From: a virus
IMG/VR virus record: IMGVR_UViG_3300031841_005609
Span: 42,203-106,202 of that record
DNA length: 64,000 bases
Direction: 5' to 3' (one strand)
Below, in pieces: positions 20,352 to 63,105 of this stretch (position 1 is the stretch's first letter; every line of letters starts with the position of its first letter). Made by a program: the position numbers and the translations under genes. The notes under the pieces were generated by a model. The model was given only the letters and a program-made list of their open reading frames with translations. It searched no databases and was not told the origin of the DNA.

Positions 20352-22220
20352 ATGTCTACATTTTCACTCGAACAGCTGACAGAGGGGATCCGTCAGAGGC
20401 ATCTAGGATCTCAGAACCGTGAGCTGACAGAAAAATGGGCGAGAACTGGTCTTCTCAAGGGTCTTGACGGTGTCAAGCGTGAGAACATGGCTCGCCTCAT
20501 GGAGAACCAGGCCGCCCAGGTTCTTAAGGAGCAGTCATCCCTTTCAAACGGCGGTGGTGGTCTTGCCAACAGCGGCGACATGCGTGGTTTCACGAACATC
20601 GCATTCCCAATTGTTCGTCGCGTATTCGGTGGTTTGATCGCAAATGACCTAGTTTCAATCCAGCCAATGAGCCTTCCGTCCGGACTCTTGTTCTACTTGG
20701 ATTACACACGTCCAGGTTTGACAAGCATCCACGAAGACGGAGTGCATGTAATAAGCTCAGGTTCTTCTGCTTACGGAGATCCAGTTGGAAGCTCAGTCCA
20801 GACAGGTGCCGATGGAAAAGGAGGTCTCTACGACCTTGCTGGAAGCGCCTATTCTAGAGTTCACAGTGCCCAAGACGGGATAACCATATCAAACTCAGGT
20901 TCATTCTCAGGCGCCGACGGCGCATGGAGAGATCACCCAGGCGATGATGCAGCCACTCACCATGAAAGAGTAGTTGCGGCCACCGGTTCTGACGGAAAGG
21001 CGATCCAGTTTGATCCCCAGCTTACTAGCTTGATTGAAGCAAGAACGCACGCTTTTGACATTAAGTTTATCTCTCTTGCGACGGGTTACACAAATGCAGA
21101 CACATCTCTTGTCAAGGAGTGGGGATTGGACGGCGGTACTTGTGGAGCTATCGATAGTGCAATTCAGACAGGGAACAGCAAGAACGTTCGTAGATTAAAT
21201 CAGCTGGTTACCTGGGATGGAACGAATTATGAGCCTGCCCCTCTAGGTGTACCTGGAGAAACAGCGAACCTTCACTTGTTGACAGTATGTTCTTCATCAA
21301 TTCGTACTGCTCCAGGTCTTGGAAACGCTGCAAACGACACGCCTCCTACGAAACTTACTTTCCCGATCAAAGATTCTCTCACATCAGGAAACGGAAGCTC
21401 AGTTGTTGTTCCTTCTTTCGAGTCGGACTTCGGATCAACTCCATCGCCGGCGATTCCAGAGATCGACATCAAGGTTGAGGCTCTTCCTGTTGTAGCTCAG
21501 TCCAGAAAGCTTCGAGCTCGATGGTCACCAGAGCTCGCTCAGGATCTCAATGCATACCACAGTCTTGATGCAGAAGTAGAGCTCACTCAAATTCTCTCAG
21601 AGCAGATCGCTCTTGAGATCGACAGAGAGGTTCTTAACGATCTTCTCACACAAGCTGGTGCAGCTAACTACTACTGGTCAAGAGCTCCTGGTCGATTCCT
21701 CAACAAGGAGACAGGTGCTGTTCAAGACTCTGGTTTCGCTTCTTTCACAGGAACAGTTCGCGAATGGTATGAGACACTTGTTGAAACCATCATTGATGTC
21801 GCTAACCAGATCCACAGAAAGACGCTTAGAGGATCTGCTAACTTCATTGTTGTTGGTCCGGATGTTGCAACAATTCTCGAAGCCTCAGTTCTCTACAAGC
21901 CATCATACAGCTTGGACGGCGACGGCCAGGTGAGCGGAATGGTTATTGGTGCAGAAAAGGTTGGTACTTTGAGCAACCGATTCACAGTCTACAAGGACCC
22001 ATACTTCCCAAGAAATAAGGTTCTCGTAGGTTACAAGGGCGGAAGCTACTTGGAGACAGGCTATGTCTATGCTCCTTATGTACCTTTGATTGTTACACCA
22101 ACAATCTTCGCTCCTGAAGATTTCACTCCTCGTAAGGGCGTTATGACTCGTTACGGCAAGAAGATGGTTCGAGCCGACTTCTACGGAACAGTTACGTGCG
22201 CTGACATGAGCGTGATCTAA
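20352..22220 (+). CDS. Major capsid protein (gp23-like), copy 1
   Basis: A 622-residue HK97-fold capsid protein of the T4 gp23 family. The N-arm leads to the conserved PIVRRVFGGLIANDLVSIQP and MSLPSGLLFYLDYT; the C-terminal half carries WSPELAQDLNAYHSLDAEVE and the end region APEDFTPRKGVMTRYGKK. A possible maturation cut is after L-K-E at residue 60, close to the position in T4 gp23 (65). The middle (about 120-370) is variable and differs from copy 2. Start ATG 20352 follows AAGGAG. A terminator follows. Confidence 0.92.
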   Translation: MSTFSLEQLTEGIRQRHLGSQNRELTEKWARTGLLKGLDGVKRENMARLMENQAAQVLKEQSSLSNGGGGLANSGDMRGFTNIAFPIVRRVFGGLIANDLVSIQPMSLPSGLLFYLDYTRPGLTSIHEDGVHVISSGSSAYGDPVGSSVQTGADGKGGLYDLAGSAYSRVHSAQDGITISNSGSFSGADGAWRDHPGDDAATHHERVVAATGSDGKAIQFDPQLTSLIEARTHAFDIKFISLATGYTNADTSLVKEWGLDGGTCGAIDSAIQTGNSKNVRRLNQLVTWDGTNYEPAPLGVPGETANLHLLTVCSSSIRTAPGLGNAANDTPPTKLTFPIKDSLTSGNGSSVVVPSFESDFGSTPSPAIPEIDIKVEALPVVAQSRKLRARWSPELAQDLNAYHSLDAEVELTQILSEQIALEIDREVLNDLLTQAGAANYYWSRAPGRFLNKETGAVQDSGFASFTGTVREWYETLVETIIDVANQIHRKTLRGSANFIVVGPDVATILEASVLYKPSYSLDGDGQVSGMVIGAEKVGTLSNRFTVYKDPYFPRNKVLVGYKGGSYLETGYVYAPYVPLIVTPTIFAPEDFTPRKGVMTRYGKKMVRADFYGTVTCADMSVI

Positions 22221-22324: not shown

Positions 22325-22490
22325 AGTGCTTTGCGAAATGGCTGATGAGAATCTGATGCCGCGAGCTTTTGGTGGTTTGAGCATGGTGCAAAAGCCACAA
22401 AACAGAGGATGGATAACCCTGGAATGTCGCCCCGGCAAAAAGCCTAGTGGGGTCGGTCGATGAGTTTTGAACATCCGCTGAAACGATGAT
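22325..22490 (+). ncRNA. Structured intergenic RNA candidate upstream of capsid copy 2
   Basis: About 165 bases without a clear gene hold three nested or adjacent helices. GCTTTTG 22365-22371 pairs with CAAAAGC 22389-22395. CAGAGGATG 22403-22411 pairs with CATCCGCTG 22472-22480 (one A-G mismatch), and encloses a hairpin CCCC-GGC/GCC-GGGG (22430-22436 with 22442-22452, TAGT bulge). It could be a leader controlling capsid copy 2 or an independent RNA. An alternative reading is a 41-codon ORF, 22338-22463, without a convincing ribosome site. Confidence 0.4.
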
Positions 22491-22518
22491 AAAGACATTA
22501 CTTATTAAGGAGAAAAAA

Positions 22519-24435
22519 ATGTCAACATTTTCATTGGAGCAGCTGACGGAAGGAATCCGAAGCCGACACCTCGGGTCACAAAACCGACAGCTTGTTGAAA
22601 AGTGGGCGAGAACTGGTCTTCTCAAGGGTCTTGACGGTGTCAAGCGTGAGAACATGGCTCGTCTTATGGAGAATCAGGCGTCACAGGTTCTTAAGGAACA
22701 ATCAAGCCTTTCAAACGGCGGTGGTGGTCTTGCCAACAGCGGCGACATGCGTGGTTTCACAAACATCGCATTCCCGATCGTAAGAAGAGTTTTCGGCGGC
22801 CTTATTGCTAACGATCTCGTAAGCATTCAGCCCATGAGCCTTCCTTCAGGTCTCTTGTTCTACTTGGATTACACAAGAGGAACCGAAGTTGGATCTTCTG
22901 ACAACCCAGTATATAGCAGTGGCGACTCAGTATACAACAGCCCAGTTGGCAAAGGCGTTCAGAGTGGATCTCTCGCAGTTGGTGGACAGTATGACTTGGC
23001 TGGAAGTGGTTACACCAGAGTTCATGAAACAAACGAAGACGTCGACTTAGGCACCGATGGTCTTGCTGCTCTTTCAAGAATTTTTACCATGGACGCAAAC
23101 GGTGATGCTACAGTAGCAACTGCTGCTCAGCTGGATCCAGTCGCGACCACAGGTCGTGCGGGTAAGCTTCTTCAGTTTGATCCACAGATCATAAAGCAGC
23201 TTGACGAAGGAACTGCTGAATATCACTTCATGCTTATTCCTCTGACCACTGACTGCTTCGGCTCAAACTTTGACACGACTCTTGTGAAGGAAGTTGGACT
23301 AGTTGTTCACACCGCCCTGCCGTCAGATGTTCTTCTCAACGTAGACAGCTCTGTACAAAGCGGTTCAACTAGAAACGTTAGACGTTTGAATCAGCTTGTT
23401 ACAGTTACTGGTGGAACTGACGCCGCCGCACTTACTACTGATAACATCGAGGCTCTGACTTCTACCCCGCTTGCTCAAGTTGGCGACACCGGTGCATGTT
23501 TGCTCATGGTTGTTCGACACAAGCCAGGTTCAACGTTCGCTGCTAGCGATCTTAACGATGGCGATCACATCGGAATCACCTATCCTGTTGCAGACAAGTT
23601 AGAGTCAGGAAGCGGCAGCTCAGTTGTTGTTCCTTCTTTCGAGTCTAACTTCGGAGCAACTCCATCACCTGAGATCCCAGAGATCGACATTAAGGTTGAG
23701 GCTTTGCCAGTTGTAGCTCAGTCACGTAAGTTGCGAGCACGTTGGTCACCAGAGCTTGCTCAGGATCTTAATGCATACCACAGCCTTGACGCTGAGGTTG
23801 AGTTGACACAGATCCTTTCAGAGCAGATCGCTCTTGAGATCGATAGAGAAGTTCTTAACGACCTTCTTACCCAGGCGGGAGCTGCTAACTACTACTGGTC
23901 ACGTGCACCAGGTCGTTTCTTGAACAAGGAGACAGGTTCAGTTTCAAGCATCGGTACTTTCACCGGTACGGTTCGTGAGTGGTATGAGACTCTCGTAGAG
24001 ACGATTATCGACGTTGCAAACCAGATCCACAGAAAGACACTGCGTGGTTCCGCAAACTTCATCGTTGTTGGACCAGACGTTGCTACTATCCTTGAAGCAA
24101 GCGTTCTCTACAAGCCATCATACAGCCTCGACGGTGACGGACAGGTTAGTGGTATGGTGATCGGAGCTGAGAAGGTTGGTACCCTTTCAAATCGTTTCAC
24201 GGTTTACAAGGATCCTTACTTCCCACGCAACAAGGTTCTTGTTGGATACAAGGGCGGAAGCTACCTTGAGACTGGTTACGTATACGCTCCATACGTACCT
24301 CTCATCGTTACTCCAACGATCTTCGCACCTGAGGACTTCACCCCACGTAAGGGTGTCATGACTCGCTACGGTAAGAAGATGGTTCGAAGTGACTTCTACG
24401 GTACCGTTACATGCGCCGACATGAGCGTGATCTAA
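22519..24435 (+). CDS. Major capsid protein (gp23-like), copy 2
   Basis: A 638-residue paralogue of the preceding capsid protein. The first 115 or so residues and the last 250 or so are nearly identical in amino acids to copy 1; the central insertion (about 120-385) is clearly different. Many synonymous changes separate the C-terminal halves, yet two N-terminal stretches are identical at DNA level. ATG 22519 is preferred over the in-frame 22486 because it has AAGGAG and matches the copy 1 N-terminus (MSTFSLEQLTEG). It is too similar to be a typical gp24-like vertex protein, but it could play that part. Confidence 0.9.
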   Translation: MSTFSLEQLTEGIRSRHLGSQNRQLVEKWARTGLLKGLDGVKRENMARLMENQASQVLKEQSSLSNGGGGLANSGDMRGFTNIAFPIVRRVFGGLIANDLVSIQPMSLPSGLLFYLDYTRGTEVGSSDNPVYSSGDSVYNSPVGKGVQSGSLAVGGQYDLAGSGYTRVHETNEDVDLGTDGLAALSRIFTMDANGDATVATAAQLDPVATTGRAGKLLQFDPQIIKQLDEGTAEYHFMLIPLTTDCFGSNFDTTLVKEVGLVVHTALPSDVLLNVDSSVQSGSTRNVRRLNQLVTVTGGTDAAALTTDNIEALTSTPLAQVGDTGACLLMVVRHKPGSTFAASDLNDGDHIGITYPVADKLESGSGSSVVVPSFESNFGATPSPEIPEIDIKVEALPVVAQSRKLRARWSPELAQDLNAYHSLDAEVELTQILSEQIALEIDREVLNDLLTQAGAANYYWSRAPGRFLNKETGSVSSIGTFTGTVREWYETLVETIIDVANQIHRKTLRGSANFIVVGPDVATILEASVLYKPSYSLDGDGQVSGMVIGAEKVGTLSNRFTVYKDPYFPRNKVLVGYKGGSYLETGYVYAPYVPLIVTPTIFAPEDFTPRKGVMTRYGKKMVRSDFYGTVTCADMSVI

Positions 24436-42070: not shown

Positions 42071-45000
42071 GAGCAGTAAAAGAGAGACTCTAGGAAACCT
42101 TATGAAACGTCCTGAAGAGTCTGAGTCTTCTGCTGCATCTAGAGCGTATGCTAATTCTTCTATTCCGGGAGGTCCCGATCAAGATCTTGTCGAGGAACAT
42201 CTCGACACTCTGAGAAAATATGCTGAGTCTCAAACAGAAGGAAACACGTTTAGACCGAGCACTGCAGAGATAGTCGCACCAGACCTTTCATCAGGCGTTC
42301 TCTCACAGACAACATCAGGCTTTCTTGTCAGAGCAAGCTCAATTGATCCCGATACCAAAGCCTACTATGAGTCTTCTGATTCTGGTATTTTCGTATCAAC
42401 CGATTCATTAATAGACTTCGGTGGAAAAAAGTTCTCGAAAAATTCTCAAGCCCAATCAGGGCCCGATGTTCTCACAGGTCACGACCTTCTTATCAGCGAG
42501 GCTGAAAGCAAACACAAATCTCCTCGGCCAGGCAGCGCCTATCGAGATCTCACTCGAATCGACCCAGCGACGACTCCGAATCGTCCAATTGCAGCTGCAG
42601 TATATCAGAGCCTGATTAATCACAATGTGTATCACCCTTCTGACAGTTCTCCGTTTTTGGATTATAGACCGTCTGTCGAAGGAGAAGGAGCTTTTTCAAA
42701 CGGAATATTCTCTTTTCAAAAAGAGCTAGGTGTTTTTAATAAAAATGCCGACAGAATATCAATTAAGGAATTGAGAAAAGTTGCAGGAGACCTTCTACTC
42801 AAGGCTCAATCGATATCAGACGGAGACGCGAAAACTGTCATTGACAGTTTCGCTGATAATGGTTTTTTCGGAAGCACACTTGATAAGTTAGTTCTACTTC
42901 CTCACACAACTCAGGTAGGTTCCGGGCAAATATCTGTAGAGAAATTGCGGGCAAGAGTTAGAAAAGCCGAAGAAATGTCATCAGGATTCGACGAAGCCGG
43001 AACATATAGCGGACAGGACGATTTATTGCTTGTTCAGACATTTAAAACAGGCATGGCGGATCAAGGAAAAGATCCGTTCATTAGCTCTCTTACGAAAGCA
43101 GATTCCGCAAGCTCTTATGGTACATTAAACTCTCCCGCAGAGCCTTTCAACGGACCCTTTCCTGCTGGTATGATAATGCCCGTAGTATACTCTATAGTTG
43201 CGGTAGGTATATTCGGCTTGATGCTTCCAGGCGTCATTTCTACTTTGTCTGATGGCCACCCTGAGCATGTAAGGGATCCAGAAAGCCCCCAGACTCTAGC
43301 CCTAGGAAGAAACTACACCACCGACGCCGGCATCGGGACAAAGACTCTTGAGCTTTTTGGGTTTCCTAGAATGGAAAACACTGGATTCTTTAGCAACATT
43401 GCTGCGGGCATGATGTCGTTTTACGGATTTCCTGATCCTATAACTCCTTTCTCTCTGTTTGGGCCTGACTTTATAGACAGTCTTGTCAATGTTCTCTTTG
43501 CTCCTGGGTACTATCTGGTTATCACGAAAGGAATTCTCAGAGATATCTCAAAGATAACTGAGGCTTTTTCCAACATCAATACGTCTTCTGGAGTTTTCGG
43601 TGCTGTGACTTCTTTTTTTGTTGCAGTAGAGTCAATATTCACTTCTTTTACGTTTAAGTTTTTCGTCACGATGGCAAAGACGGGCCAGCAAATTATGAAA
43701 GGTCTGTTGCAGCCCGGAAGAGACGGACATGGTGGTTTGGTTCCGACATACAACGATCAGAAAAATACTCGACCTGAGTCTCTCACGGGAAGAAACAGGC
43801 TTGCTTATTCTAGGATTCATACCTCTCGAGAGGATGCCGAGTCGCCATTATCCCTCAGGAAACACATGGCTGCTTGGCTTTCAAACGAAGTTCACGCAGC
43901 TCTCTCAACACAAAAGCTTCCGGCGTCTCCGGAAGGTGAAGGTGAGCCTGTCAAAGTTCTCGAGTCTCATGTTGCTGAAAAAACCCCGATCAGACTTACT
44001 GCAAAGCAAGTTGAGTACGTAGAAGATATCATTGATGCCGAATATGTTCCGTTTTCAATACAGGACTTGAGAACGAACGAAATATTCAGCATGCCTGCTT
44101 TTATAACTAGCATATCTGATGATTTTGCAGTCCAGCATGGTACTTCTCACGGATACGGAAGAACTGATCCCGTCTATTCTTACGCAAAAACTGTGAGAAG
44201 CATAAATCTTGTTTTTGACATGATAGCAATGAACGAGAGAGATCATAACTATCTCTATATTCTTTTAAATAAACTCACTGCGATGTGCTATCCGCAGAGA
44301 GATGCTGGCCTGATAAGAGCCCAGGAGAACGGACAGTTTTTCTCTCAGCCGTTTTCACAGACTCCAACTGCTTCTCCTGTCGTTAGAATAAGACTAGGTG
44401 ATCTCCTTGCTTCGAATAAGTCCGCTCGAGCAATGGAAAATATCTTCGGCGGACCCGATATTCTAGGCTTAAAAGCTGAAAAGACCGCCAACTTGAGTCA
44501 AAAGTCACAAGATCTTACTGCAAAAAGAAGAGAAAACCTCTTAAAGGTAGGAGAAGAAAAAGCAAAGCTCTATAAGCAGTTCGCTGAAGGTCAAATTGAC
44601 CCCGGGACTGAGATAGTGATCCCTGCAGGAACAACTTTAGCACTTAGGGGATCTGATAAGTTTGCCACCTTTAGAACTCTTTTACCCGCTCAGGTCAAGA
44701 TCAAGGGTACTGAAGAGTTTTCTGGCTCCCCTGACAATGTCAATCTAGGACAAAAAGCTGGTGACGGAGAGGCCAAAGAAGCTCTCTATCAAATAGAGCT
44801 CCCGAAAGAAATTACCGAAAACCGAAAGCAGGCATATAATTTCGGAGGAGTCACGCTTGCTGCTCTCGTCAACAACTCAGAAGGCGGTGGATTACTAGGA
44901 GGGCTTCTAGGCAACGACTCCGGACCAACAGTCTTCATAAAGAAGTCTACAAAGATTGATATCTTTGATGAAGATGTCCTGAAATCACTCCAGCTTAATG

Positions 45001-61927: not shown

Positions 61928-62386
61928 ATGTATCGAGTAGAAAACAAATGGAAACCACCCCGATCTCCTATCGGCATGCTGCAAGAAGATATGTGGCCCG
62001 ATGAGTGGAAGATCCTTGTTGTGTGTTCACTTCACAACCAAACTTCACGCAAGCAAGTAGACAAGGTTTACGAAGAACTATTCGAAACATACCCAAATCC
62101 CACGGCGATGTCCGAAGCGGTTCATGAAGAACTAGTCCAGATCATTCGCCCACTGGGGTTCTATAATCGTAGGGCCCGCGCCCTCGTTCGCATGTCCAAA
62201 GATTTCCTGGAAAAAGATTGGAACCGCGCTTCCGAACTTTACGGGTGCGGAAAGTACGCGGATGATTGTTACCGAGTTTTTTGTACGGGTGAGTGGCAAT
62301 CTGTAGAACCAACAGATCACTCTCTCAATGATTACGTTGATTGGATGAGAAAGAATCACGATAAACAATGCAGGGAACTAAGATAG
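61928..62386 (+). CDS. HhH-GPD DNA glycosylase, MBD4-like
   Basis: A 152-residue base-excision glycosylase. The helix-hairpin-helix and following site read LYGCGKYADDCYRVF with probable catalytic Asp113; upstream are CSLHNQTSRKQVDKV and IIRPLGFYNRRARAL, and downstream EWQSVEPTDHSLNDYVDW. This matches the glycosylase domain of eukaryotic MBD4 along nearly its whole length. No iron-sulfur cysteines follow, unlike EndoIII. MBD4 removes T or U mispaired with G; the same role is inferred here, alongside dUTPase and ThyX. Confidence 0.78.
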   Translation: MYRVENKWKPPRSPIGMLQEDMWPDEWKILVVCSLHNQTSRKQVDKVYEELFETYPNPTAMSEAVHEELVQIIRPLGFYNRRARALVRMSKDFLEKDWNRASELYGCGKYADDCYRVFCTGEWQSVEPTDHSLNDYVDWMRKNHDKQCRELR

Positions 62387-62395
62387 GACTAAAAC

Positions 62396-62517
62396 AGGAG
62401 TGAGGCGGTATTACGCAGGGTTCTACTGAGACGATATACGACCCGGTCCGAGGAATGAGAGTCTTACAAGGGAATACTCGGCCACTTGCAGGTGAGAACC
62501 CTGTCACTCCTTCTTTT
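62396..62517 (+). ncRNA. Highly structured RNA candidate with terminal T run
   Basis: A gene-free stretch folds into four helices. P1: AGGAGTGA 62396-62403 with TCACTCCT 62504-62511 (8 bp). P2: CAGGGTTCT 62416-62424 with AGAACCCTG 62495-62503 (9 bp, contiguous with P1 on the 3' strand, 12-base bulge on the 5' strand). P3: GG-CCGAG 62445-62452 (one bulged T) with CTCGGCC 62477-62483. P4: CACT/GGTG hairpin 62483-62494. TTCTTTTT follows, like a terminator. No RNA family was recognised. Confidence 0.7.
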
Positions 62518-62540
62518 TGGTATATTTGCATGCTGCGTTC

Positions 62541-62574: not shown

Positions 62575-62880
62575 ATGAAAATCACAAAGCGACAACTTAG
62601 AAATATTATCAGAGAAGCAATGGACTACGATCCGCTTGGAGATGGTGGCGTTCCTCATGTCGGCGCTGGTCCCAAGTATGCCTTGGCCTTTGTCGATGCC
62701 GCATATGGTGACCGAAGAATGGAATTGGTCGTCAGAGAAGAGGATATGGAACTGGCTCGCGAGGTGATGAAAAAGATGCGAAAGCAAGGCCAGGTATCAG
62801 GTGTGCAACCGACTCGACAAAAGTTTGATCCACGTGATGTCACCACTAGAGAAGATTTGGAGAGAATGCTAAGAACATGA
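62575..62880 (+). CDS. Small protein with KRQLRNIIRE N-terminal helix
   Basis: A 101-residue protein beginning MKITKRQLRNIIREAM, a motif I recall at the N-terminus of many small proteins in large marine phages. GGVPHVGAGPKY follows, then a small alpha/beta part (FVDAAYGDRRMELVVREEDM) and a C-terminal helix. It shares the basic helix with the products at 16829, 49920 and 51096. A GGAGGT ribosome site and candidate promoter precede it. The function is unknown; a virion-associated or internal head protein is possible. Confidence 0.6.
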   Translation: MKITKRQLRNIIREAMDYDPLGDGGVPHVGAGPKYALAFVDAAYGDRRMELVVREEDMELAREVMKKMRKQGQVSGVQPTRQKFDPRDVTTREDLERMLRT

Positions 62881-62942: not shown

Positions 62943-62972
62943 TTGTAAATACATCTACTCCCGAAATATAAT
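62943..62972 (+). promoter_or_regulatory. Sigma70-like promoter
   Basis: TTGTAA (62943-62948), 18-base spacer, perfect TATAAT (62967-62972), in a 229-base gap before the 63110 gene. Probably an early promoter read by host polymerase. Confidence 0.6.
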
Positions 62973-62984
62973 TTTATCAAATGA

Positions 62985-63105
62985 AGTTACCCCGATTGTA
63001 AGGATGAAGCGGGAGAGGGATAAACTCCATGATTGCTAATCTGCGGGTGGGGCTGGAAACAGTCAGTTAGGTGGTCTGGTTGCCTAACACCTTTTTGGGA
63101 GAGAA
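62985..63105 (+). ncRNA. Structured 5' leader of the 63110 gene
   Basis: Downstream of the sigma70-like promoter the leader holds several hairpins: GGAG/CTCC (63012-63015 with 63025-63028), GGCTG-GAAA-CAGTC with a GNRA loop (63051-63064), and GTTAGG/CCTAAC (63066-63071 with 63083-63088) followed by ACCTTTTT, which looks like an attenuator 13 bases before the ribosome site region. It may be a regulatory leader or a terminator of an upstream small RNA. Confidence 0.4.

Follow-up and report, generated by a model that had tools for sequence, protein, structure and literature searches.

The question raised by the short interval between a glycosylase gene and a small protein gene of an uncultured marine phage is whether it holds a simple transcription terminator or an RNA in its own right, and if so of what kind. 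The window analysed is a stretch of 64,000 nucleotides (positions 42,203 to 106,202 of IMG/VR record IMGVR_UViG_3300031841_005609), which forms the right-hand part of a 106-kb contig.

Locus and family

The RNA, here called RNA A, occupies positions 62396-62511 of the window, from the 5' end to the 3' end of a tRNA-like acceptor stem, and is encoded on the plus strand, as are its flanking genes and all other elements of the locus given below. It scores 139.5 bits with CM R1, a covariance model built from 15 members with the window copy among them. Upstream lies an HhH-GPD base-excision glycosylase gene (61928-62386; Pfam PF00730, 47.4 bits), the stop codon of which is 9 nt from the start of RNA A. 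A small gene (MKITKRQLRNIIREA...; 62575-62880), an open reading frame with the Shine-Dalgarno sequence GGAGG, follows about 60 nt downstream, and the same order is found in the 280.9-kb contig L048. Large marine phages carry the N-terminal motif MKITKRQLRxIIREA in many different small genes (window 62575-62880; L012-L027), sometimes with many copies at one locus, and it is perhaps a shared targeting signal. The phage of the window is T4-like and far from any isolate, with capsid matches to isolates all below 60% identity and best terminase matches about 42-43% identical. Two adjacent major capsid protein genes (20352-22220 and 22486-24435), 77% identical to each other, are present in the window; two such genes are also found in G021 and G024.

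The segment belongs to a conserved RNA family. An exact 18-mer taken from it matched 11 IMG/VR contigs, in which the whole element is conserved, and two additional sequence patterns led to 11 more contigs with RNA A. The family includes 23 further copies, which lie in no fewer than 22 other contigs of uncultured marine viruses, with two copies in L048. The window copy and L048 copy 1 have 93% nucleotide identity (112 of 120 columns), and the terminase of the window phage is 49% and 64% identical to those of two other carriers. Where relatives of either flanking gene (glycosylase or small gene) were compared, RNA A is missing at that place. A search of 40 records with the covariance model, several of them large contigs (185-293 kb) with a capsid protein related to that of the window, added no other strong copy, so the distribution of RNA A within these phages is patchy. 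Among 50,697 phage records Blast gave only a chance-level match, and no copy was found in those records, in the PLSDB plasmids or in 84,980 prokaryote genomes covered by two exact-pattern scans, which diverged members could escape. Rfam searches of the window at gathering and relaxed thresholds gave no match, and a description of RNA A was not found in the literature. RNA A is a previously unlisted small RNA family without an Rfam entry. This agrees with the first-pass annotation, which had suggested a phage small RNA of no recognised family: the segment has homologues, its stems covary, and no family exceeds the Rfam cut-off. A guanidine (ykkC) riboswitch, suspected from AGGGUUC...GGUCCGAG, was rejected, as the Rfam scans gave no such match and the fold is a cloverleaf. 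A TPP-like CUGAGA in a loop has no Rfam support and was judged to be chance, as was a 34-nt similarity to folE of Pseudomonas phages, which lies within a coding gene.

Cloverleaf fold and loop-loop pseudoknot

When relatives are folded singly, a tRNA cloverleaf is obtained; of the 13 other ungapped members, 12 have it as their lowest-energy fold, and in the 13th (L036) it lies within 0.1 kcal/mol of the minimum. The elements follow one another as an acceptor stem of 7 bp, a 2-nt link, a D-like arm of 3 bp with a 6-nt loop, a 1-nt link, an anticodon-like arm of 5 bp with a 17-nt loop, a class-II-like variable arm of 7 bp with a 24-nt loop, and a T arm of 5 bp with a 7-nt loop that leads straight into the acceptor 3' strand. 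Both connector lengths (acceptor to D, 2 nt; D to anticodon, 1 nt) are exactly those of tRNA. In the window copy, the acceptor stem pairs 62396-62402 with 62505-62511 (99% of cells paired among the members). The D-like arm (62405-62416) reads GCG / GUAUUA / CGC, is invariant in 15/15 sequences and is part of the relatives' predicted fold. The anticodon-like arm (62418-62444) pairs GGGUU with GACCC around the conserved loop 62423-62439, with a change from U-G to U-A in one member. The variable arm (62446-62483) consists of a stem, 62446-62452 with 62477-62483, and a conserved loop; in the window copy it is better drawn with 62445-62446 paired to 62482-62483 and U62447 bulged (-34.7 kcal/mol). 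The T arm (62488-62504) reads GCAGG / UGAGAAC / CCUGU, and its loop positions 55-57 vary in relatives.

The cloverleaf is supported by covariation. Among 15 distinct sequences, 99.6% of cells are paired and nine pairs have two-sided changes: two in the acceptor stem, four in the variable arm, two in the T arm and one in a pseudoknot. The covariation score is 0.249, against 0.129 +/- 0.012 for shuffles, with 0/500 shuffles as high, although the sequences are fairly close relatives, so that these shuffle figures are not probabilities. Slid versions of the cloverleaf score at most 0.096. The D stem is invariant, and the anticodon stem shows a one-sided change at a single pair; because they hardly vary, these two stems are placed by folding and analogy. 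The loop sequences of RNA A are nearly invariant and the stems variable. RNA A is conserved as a tRNA cloverleaf in which the anticodon-like and variable loops are enlarged. The overall architecture drawn earlier from the window alone, in which two long helices share one 3' strand, was a misreading.

The pseudoknot is of 4 bp and joins the anticodon-like loop (AGAC, 62429-62432) to the variable loop (GUCU, 62461-62464). This pairing had been proposed from the window sequence, and it is kept in all of the 15 sequences aligned, one of which has a compensatory change. At the last pair, 10 sequences have C-G, four have U-G and L058, the one sequence that provides the two-sided change, has U-A. The alternative that had been offered, ACCC with GGG, fails, as one G reads A in many relatives.

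The two helices of the earlier drawing are P1 (62396-62403 with 62504-62511) and P2 (62416-62424 with 62495-62503), with a contiguous 17-nt 3' strand and then a T run. Both helices are in the window sequence, and the predicted minimum-energy fold of the window segment holds P1, most of P2 and the P4 hairpin also described at that time. The exact geometry (8 + 9 bp, contiguous 3' strand) is found a single time in the window and in none of 20 dinucleotide shuffles; the folding energy of the segment is unremarkable (z -0.67, 49/200 shuffles as good). P1 corresponds to the acceptor stem and is conserved, but P2 is broken in relatives. Across the 15 sequences, 79.9% of the P2 cells are paired, no two-sided changes occur, and four of its nine pairs are broken in 5, 5, 10 and 7 sequences; pairs are lost where the T arm is GUGGG-UUUAAAC-CCCAC, and the full 9-bp P2 is present in a minority of copies. 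The window copy alone prefers P1/P2 (-36.3 kcal/mol, against -34.7 kcal/mol for the cloverleaf with its bulged variable stem). On these computed energies it would be either bistable or slightly decayed.

Relationship to tRNA and other stable RNAs

With tRNA (RF00005), class II especially, RNA A shares the cloverleaf, the connector lengths, the 7-bp acceptor stem, the 5-bp/7-nt T arm and the long variable arm. It differs in its 17-nt, nearly invariant anticodon-like loop (7 nt in tRNA), in its 24-nt variable loop with the pseudoknot, and in having no elbow of T-loop U55 C56 and D-loop G18 G19. The T loops among the copies are UGAGAAC, UGAAAAU, UAAAAAU and others, without a conserved UUC; the D loop GUAUUA has no GG, CCA is not conserved and the first acceptor pair is variable. 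The resemblance is no artefact of drawing, since a covariance model made only from RNA A finds genuine tRNAs and the Rfam tRNA model aligns a member of the family. The former matches phage tRNA-Leu (23.0 and 22.6 bits), tRNA-Pro (20.1) and tRNA-Arg (18.0), with E values of 1e-4 to 3e-3, and the tRNA-Ser of T4 (24.8 bits, E 2e-6). The latter spans the whole of copy L033 in an alignment of 23.1 bits (E 0.005), which is short of the cut-off of 29 for that model. The Rfam tRNA model gave no match to the window, and neither the window nor the copies checked yielded a tRNA call with ARAGORN. RNA A and a phage tRNA-Pro share the acceptor GGAGTG/CACTCC and the D stem GCG/CGC (only 17 tRNAs compared), and the likeness is suggestive of a descent from phage tRNA-Pro.

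A functional tRNA for phage translation, with or without an intron in its anticodon loop, would account for the cloverleaf geometry and the similarity to tRNA models; relatives carry tRNA genes, and the 17-nt loop starts CUACUGA, like a normal anticodon loop. It is nonetheless quite improbable in view of the varying T-loop positions 55-57, the D loop without GG, the unconserved CCA and the changing first acceptor pair; moreover, the 17-nt loop is too nearly invariant to be intron-like, and ARAGORN rejects the copies. As it has neither the elbow nucleotides nor a 7-nt anticodon loop nor CCA, RNA A is probably no decoding tRNA and unlikely to work in translation.

Pieces of other RNA genes are found beside two copies. 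In L055 (reverse strand) a tRNA is broken at its anticodon stem: the 5' half lies a few bases upstream of RNA A, and a tRNA 3' half with an acceptor strand matching it is located about 2.9 kb downstream. In L053 the 5' part of a phage tmRNA (717-938; tag ANNNYFYDSARLAA) immediately precedes RNA A; this contig stops just after RNA A, and no tmRNA 3' end is seen in it. These two positions, together with the two copies in L048 and the many contigs that end near a copy, could be taken for a piece of a mobile DNA element or a recombination site spreading in the neighbourhood of tRNA and tmRNA genes, the RNA fold being incidental. This is improbable, as the compensatory stem changes and the strand-specific promoter described below argue for selection at the RNA level.

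Comparable stable RNAs are known from T4, a T4-like myovirus in which species 1 RNA (rnaC, 139 nt) and species 2 RNA (rnaD, 119 nt) are located at the tRNA cluster. By analogy, species 1 RNA is the closest precedent, comparable in kind: like RNA A, it combines a T arm, here a perfect one, with a long variable-like hairpin (L089:1409-1547). The RNA A model matches rnaC weakly, through these two elements (16.0 bits, E 7e-4, in an unfiltered 4.5-kb search). However, rnaC is longer, has a different 5' half and has no clear sequence similarity to RNA A beyond the T arm. The predicted fold of rnaD has no clear tRNA features. Neither rnaC nor rnaD was assigned to a family when the T4 tRNA cluster was scanned with Rfam, and to our knowledge no function has been assigned to the T4 small stable RNAs. 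With tmRNA (RF00023), RNA A shares tRNA-like ends and a pseudoknot, but it has no tag reading frame, possesses D-like and anticodon-like stems and is less than half as long. No tmRNA match (tag frame, four pseudoknots) was obtained in the window or L048 copy 2, and no tag frame lies between the stems.

Transcription and probable role

Most other copies are preceded by a sigma-70-like promoter that ends about 7 nt before the acceptor stem (e.g., TTGACA-17-TATAAT and TTGACA-17-TATACT); in L049, L050, L054 and L057 the elements are TTGACT and TATAGT, placed further upstream. No clear promoter is seen for the window copy, nor for those of L055 and L053 behind the tRNA and tmRNA pieces. From the promoter position, the transcript is predicted to start at the acceptor stem or one base before it. 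Given the lack of a good promoter, the flaw in its variable stem and the rival fold, the window copy could be decaying, or could be co-transcribed with the glycosylase gene.

The 3' side of RNA A is occupied by a T run (window and L048:3212) or by a second conserved structured RNA, RNA B; most copies have no T run. In the window the run (62512-62518) directly follows the acceptor stem, as had been noted, is the same in the syntenic copy L048:3212, and is likely the tail of a terminator. RNA B is found directly behind RNA A in most relatives; in the window (62979-63095) it has its own promoter, TTGTAA-18-TATAAT (62943-62972; 10/12 consensus matches), in a region conserved in L048. Besides its closing stem it has a second hairpin, in which compensatory changes occur, and a terminator hairpin (63066-63088), after which comes a T run; its members differ by the loss of whole sub-hairpins. 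The window and L048 agree in the arrangement of RNA A, small MKITKRQLR-type gene(s), promoter and RNA B, in that order. A conserved mini reading frame in RNA B, MKLPRL, is shortened in L028 and L031 and is not claimed.

An ordinary intrinsic terminator behind the glycosylase gene would suit the paired 17-nt 3' strand and TTCTTTTT, yet it is highly improbable, and as a full explanation it is refuted by the conservation of RNA A without a T run and by its other structure. The earlier judgement that the pairing goes far beyond a simple terminator was sound: about 118 nt of sequence and structure are conserved in differing gene contexts, mostly with their own promoter and no T run. The T run of the window copy may still end transcription there. 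The main rival of the interpretation favoured here, a protein-binding tRNA mimic, is a cis-acting leader (riboswitch or attenuator), in which the cloverleaf would alternate with the P1/P2 helix and T run as an intrinsic terminator controlling the next gene. Such a leader would explain why the T run follows directly in the window and L048:3212, why cloverleaf and P1/P2 are nearly equal in energy (in L048:3212, -37.2 and -37.1 kcal/mol; the window values are given above), and why the layout of promoter, RNA, terminator, ribosome-binding site and gene recurs. It is unlikely all the same, as P2 neither is conserved nor covaries, RNA A mostly has no T run, the downstream genes vary between copies, and L058 has a new promoter between the terminator and the next gene. 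A bistable window copy with its T run could matter for termination.

The best reading of RNA A as a whole, held with about even confidence, is a phage-encoded, tRNA-derived noncoding RNA gene of about 118 nt, a probable protein-binding mimic and possible decoy. Transcription would start at the acceptor 5' end, which would then be sealed in the acceptor stem to give a stable RNA. The constant, docked loops would present a fixed surface to a protein; with nearly invariant loops on varying stems, that surface may be recognised as a whole. Antisense targets of the loops within the window were no longer than expected by chance. A protein-binding tRNA mimic is considered the most likely role, and the leading specific guess is a decoy for a tRNA-handling host enzyme: a tRNase, a synthetase or a processing enzyme would most likely be the protein occupied by RNA A. 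More tentatively, and at present doubtfully, RNA A may represent a new class of phage tRNA mimic whose docked, near-invariant loops capture a host tRNA-targeting nuclease or another tRNA enzyme.

RNA A is a covariation-supported family of large marine T4-like phages with a tRNA fold and expanded loops locked by a pseudoknot. Beside the example of T4, it offers a second and clearly conserved one, by which the reason why phages keep non-decoding tRNA-like RNAs becomes testable, on a compact sequence with defined loops to mutate. If true, the capture of a tRNA enzyme by docked loops would be an RNA-based form of counter-defence.
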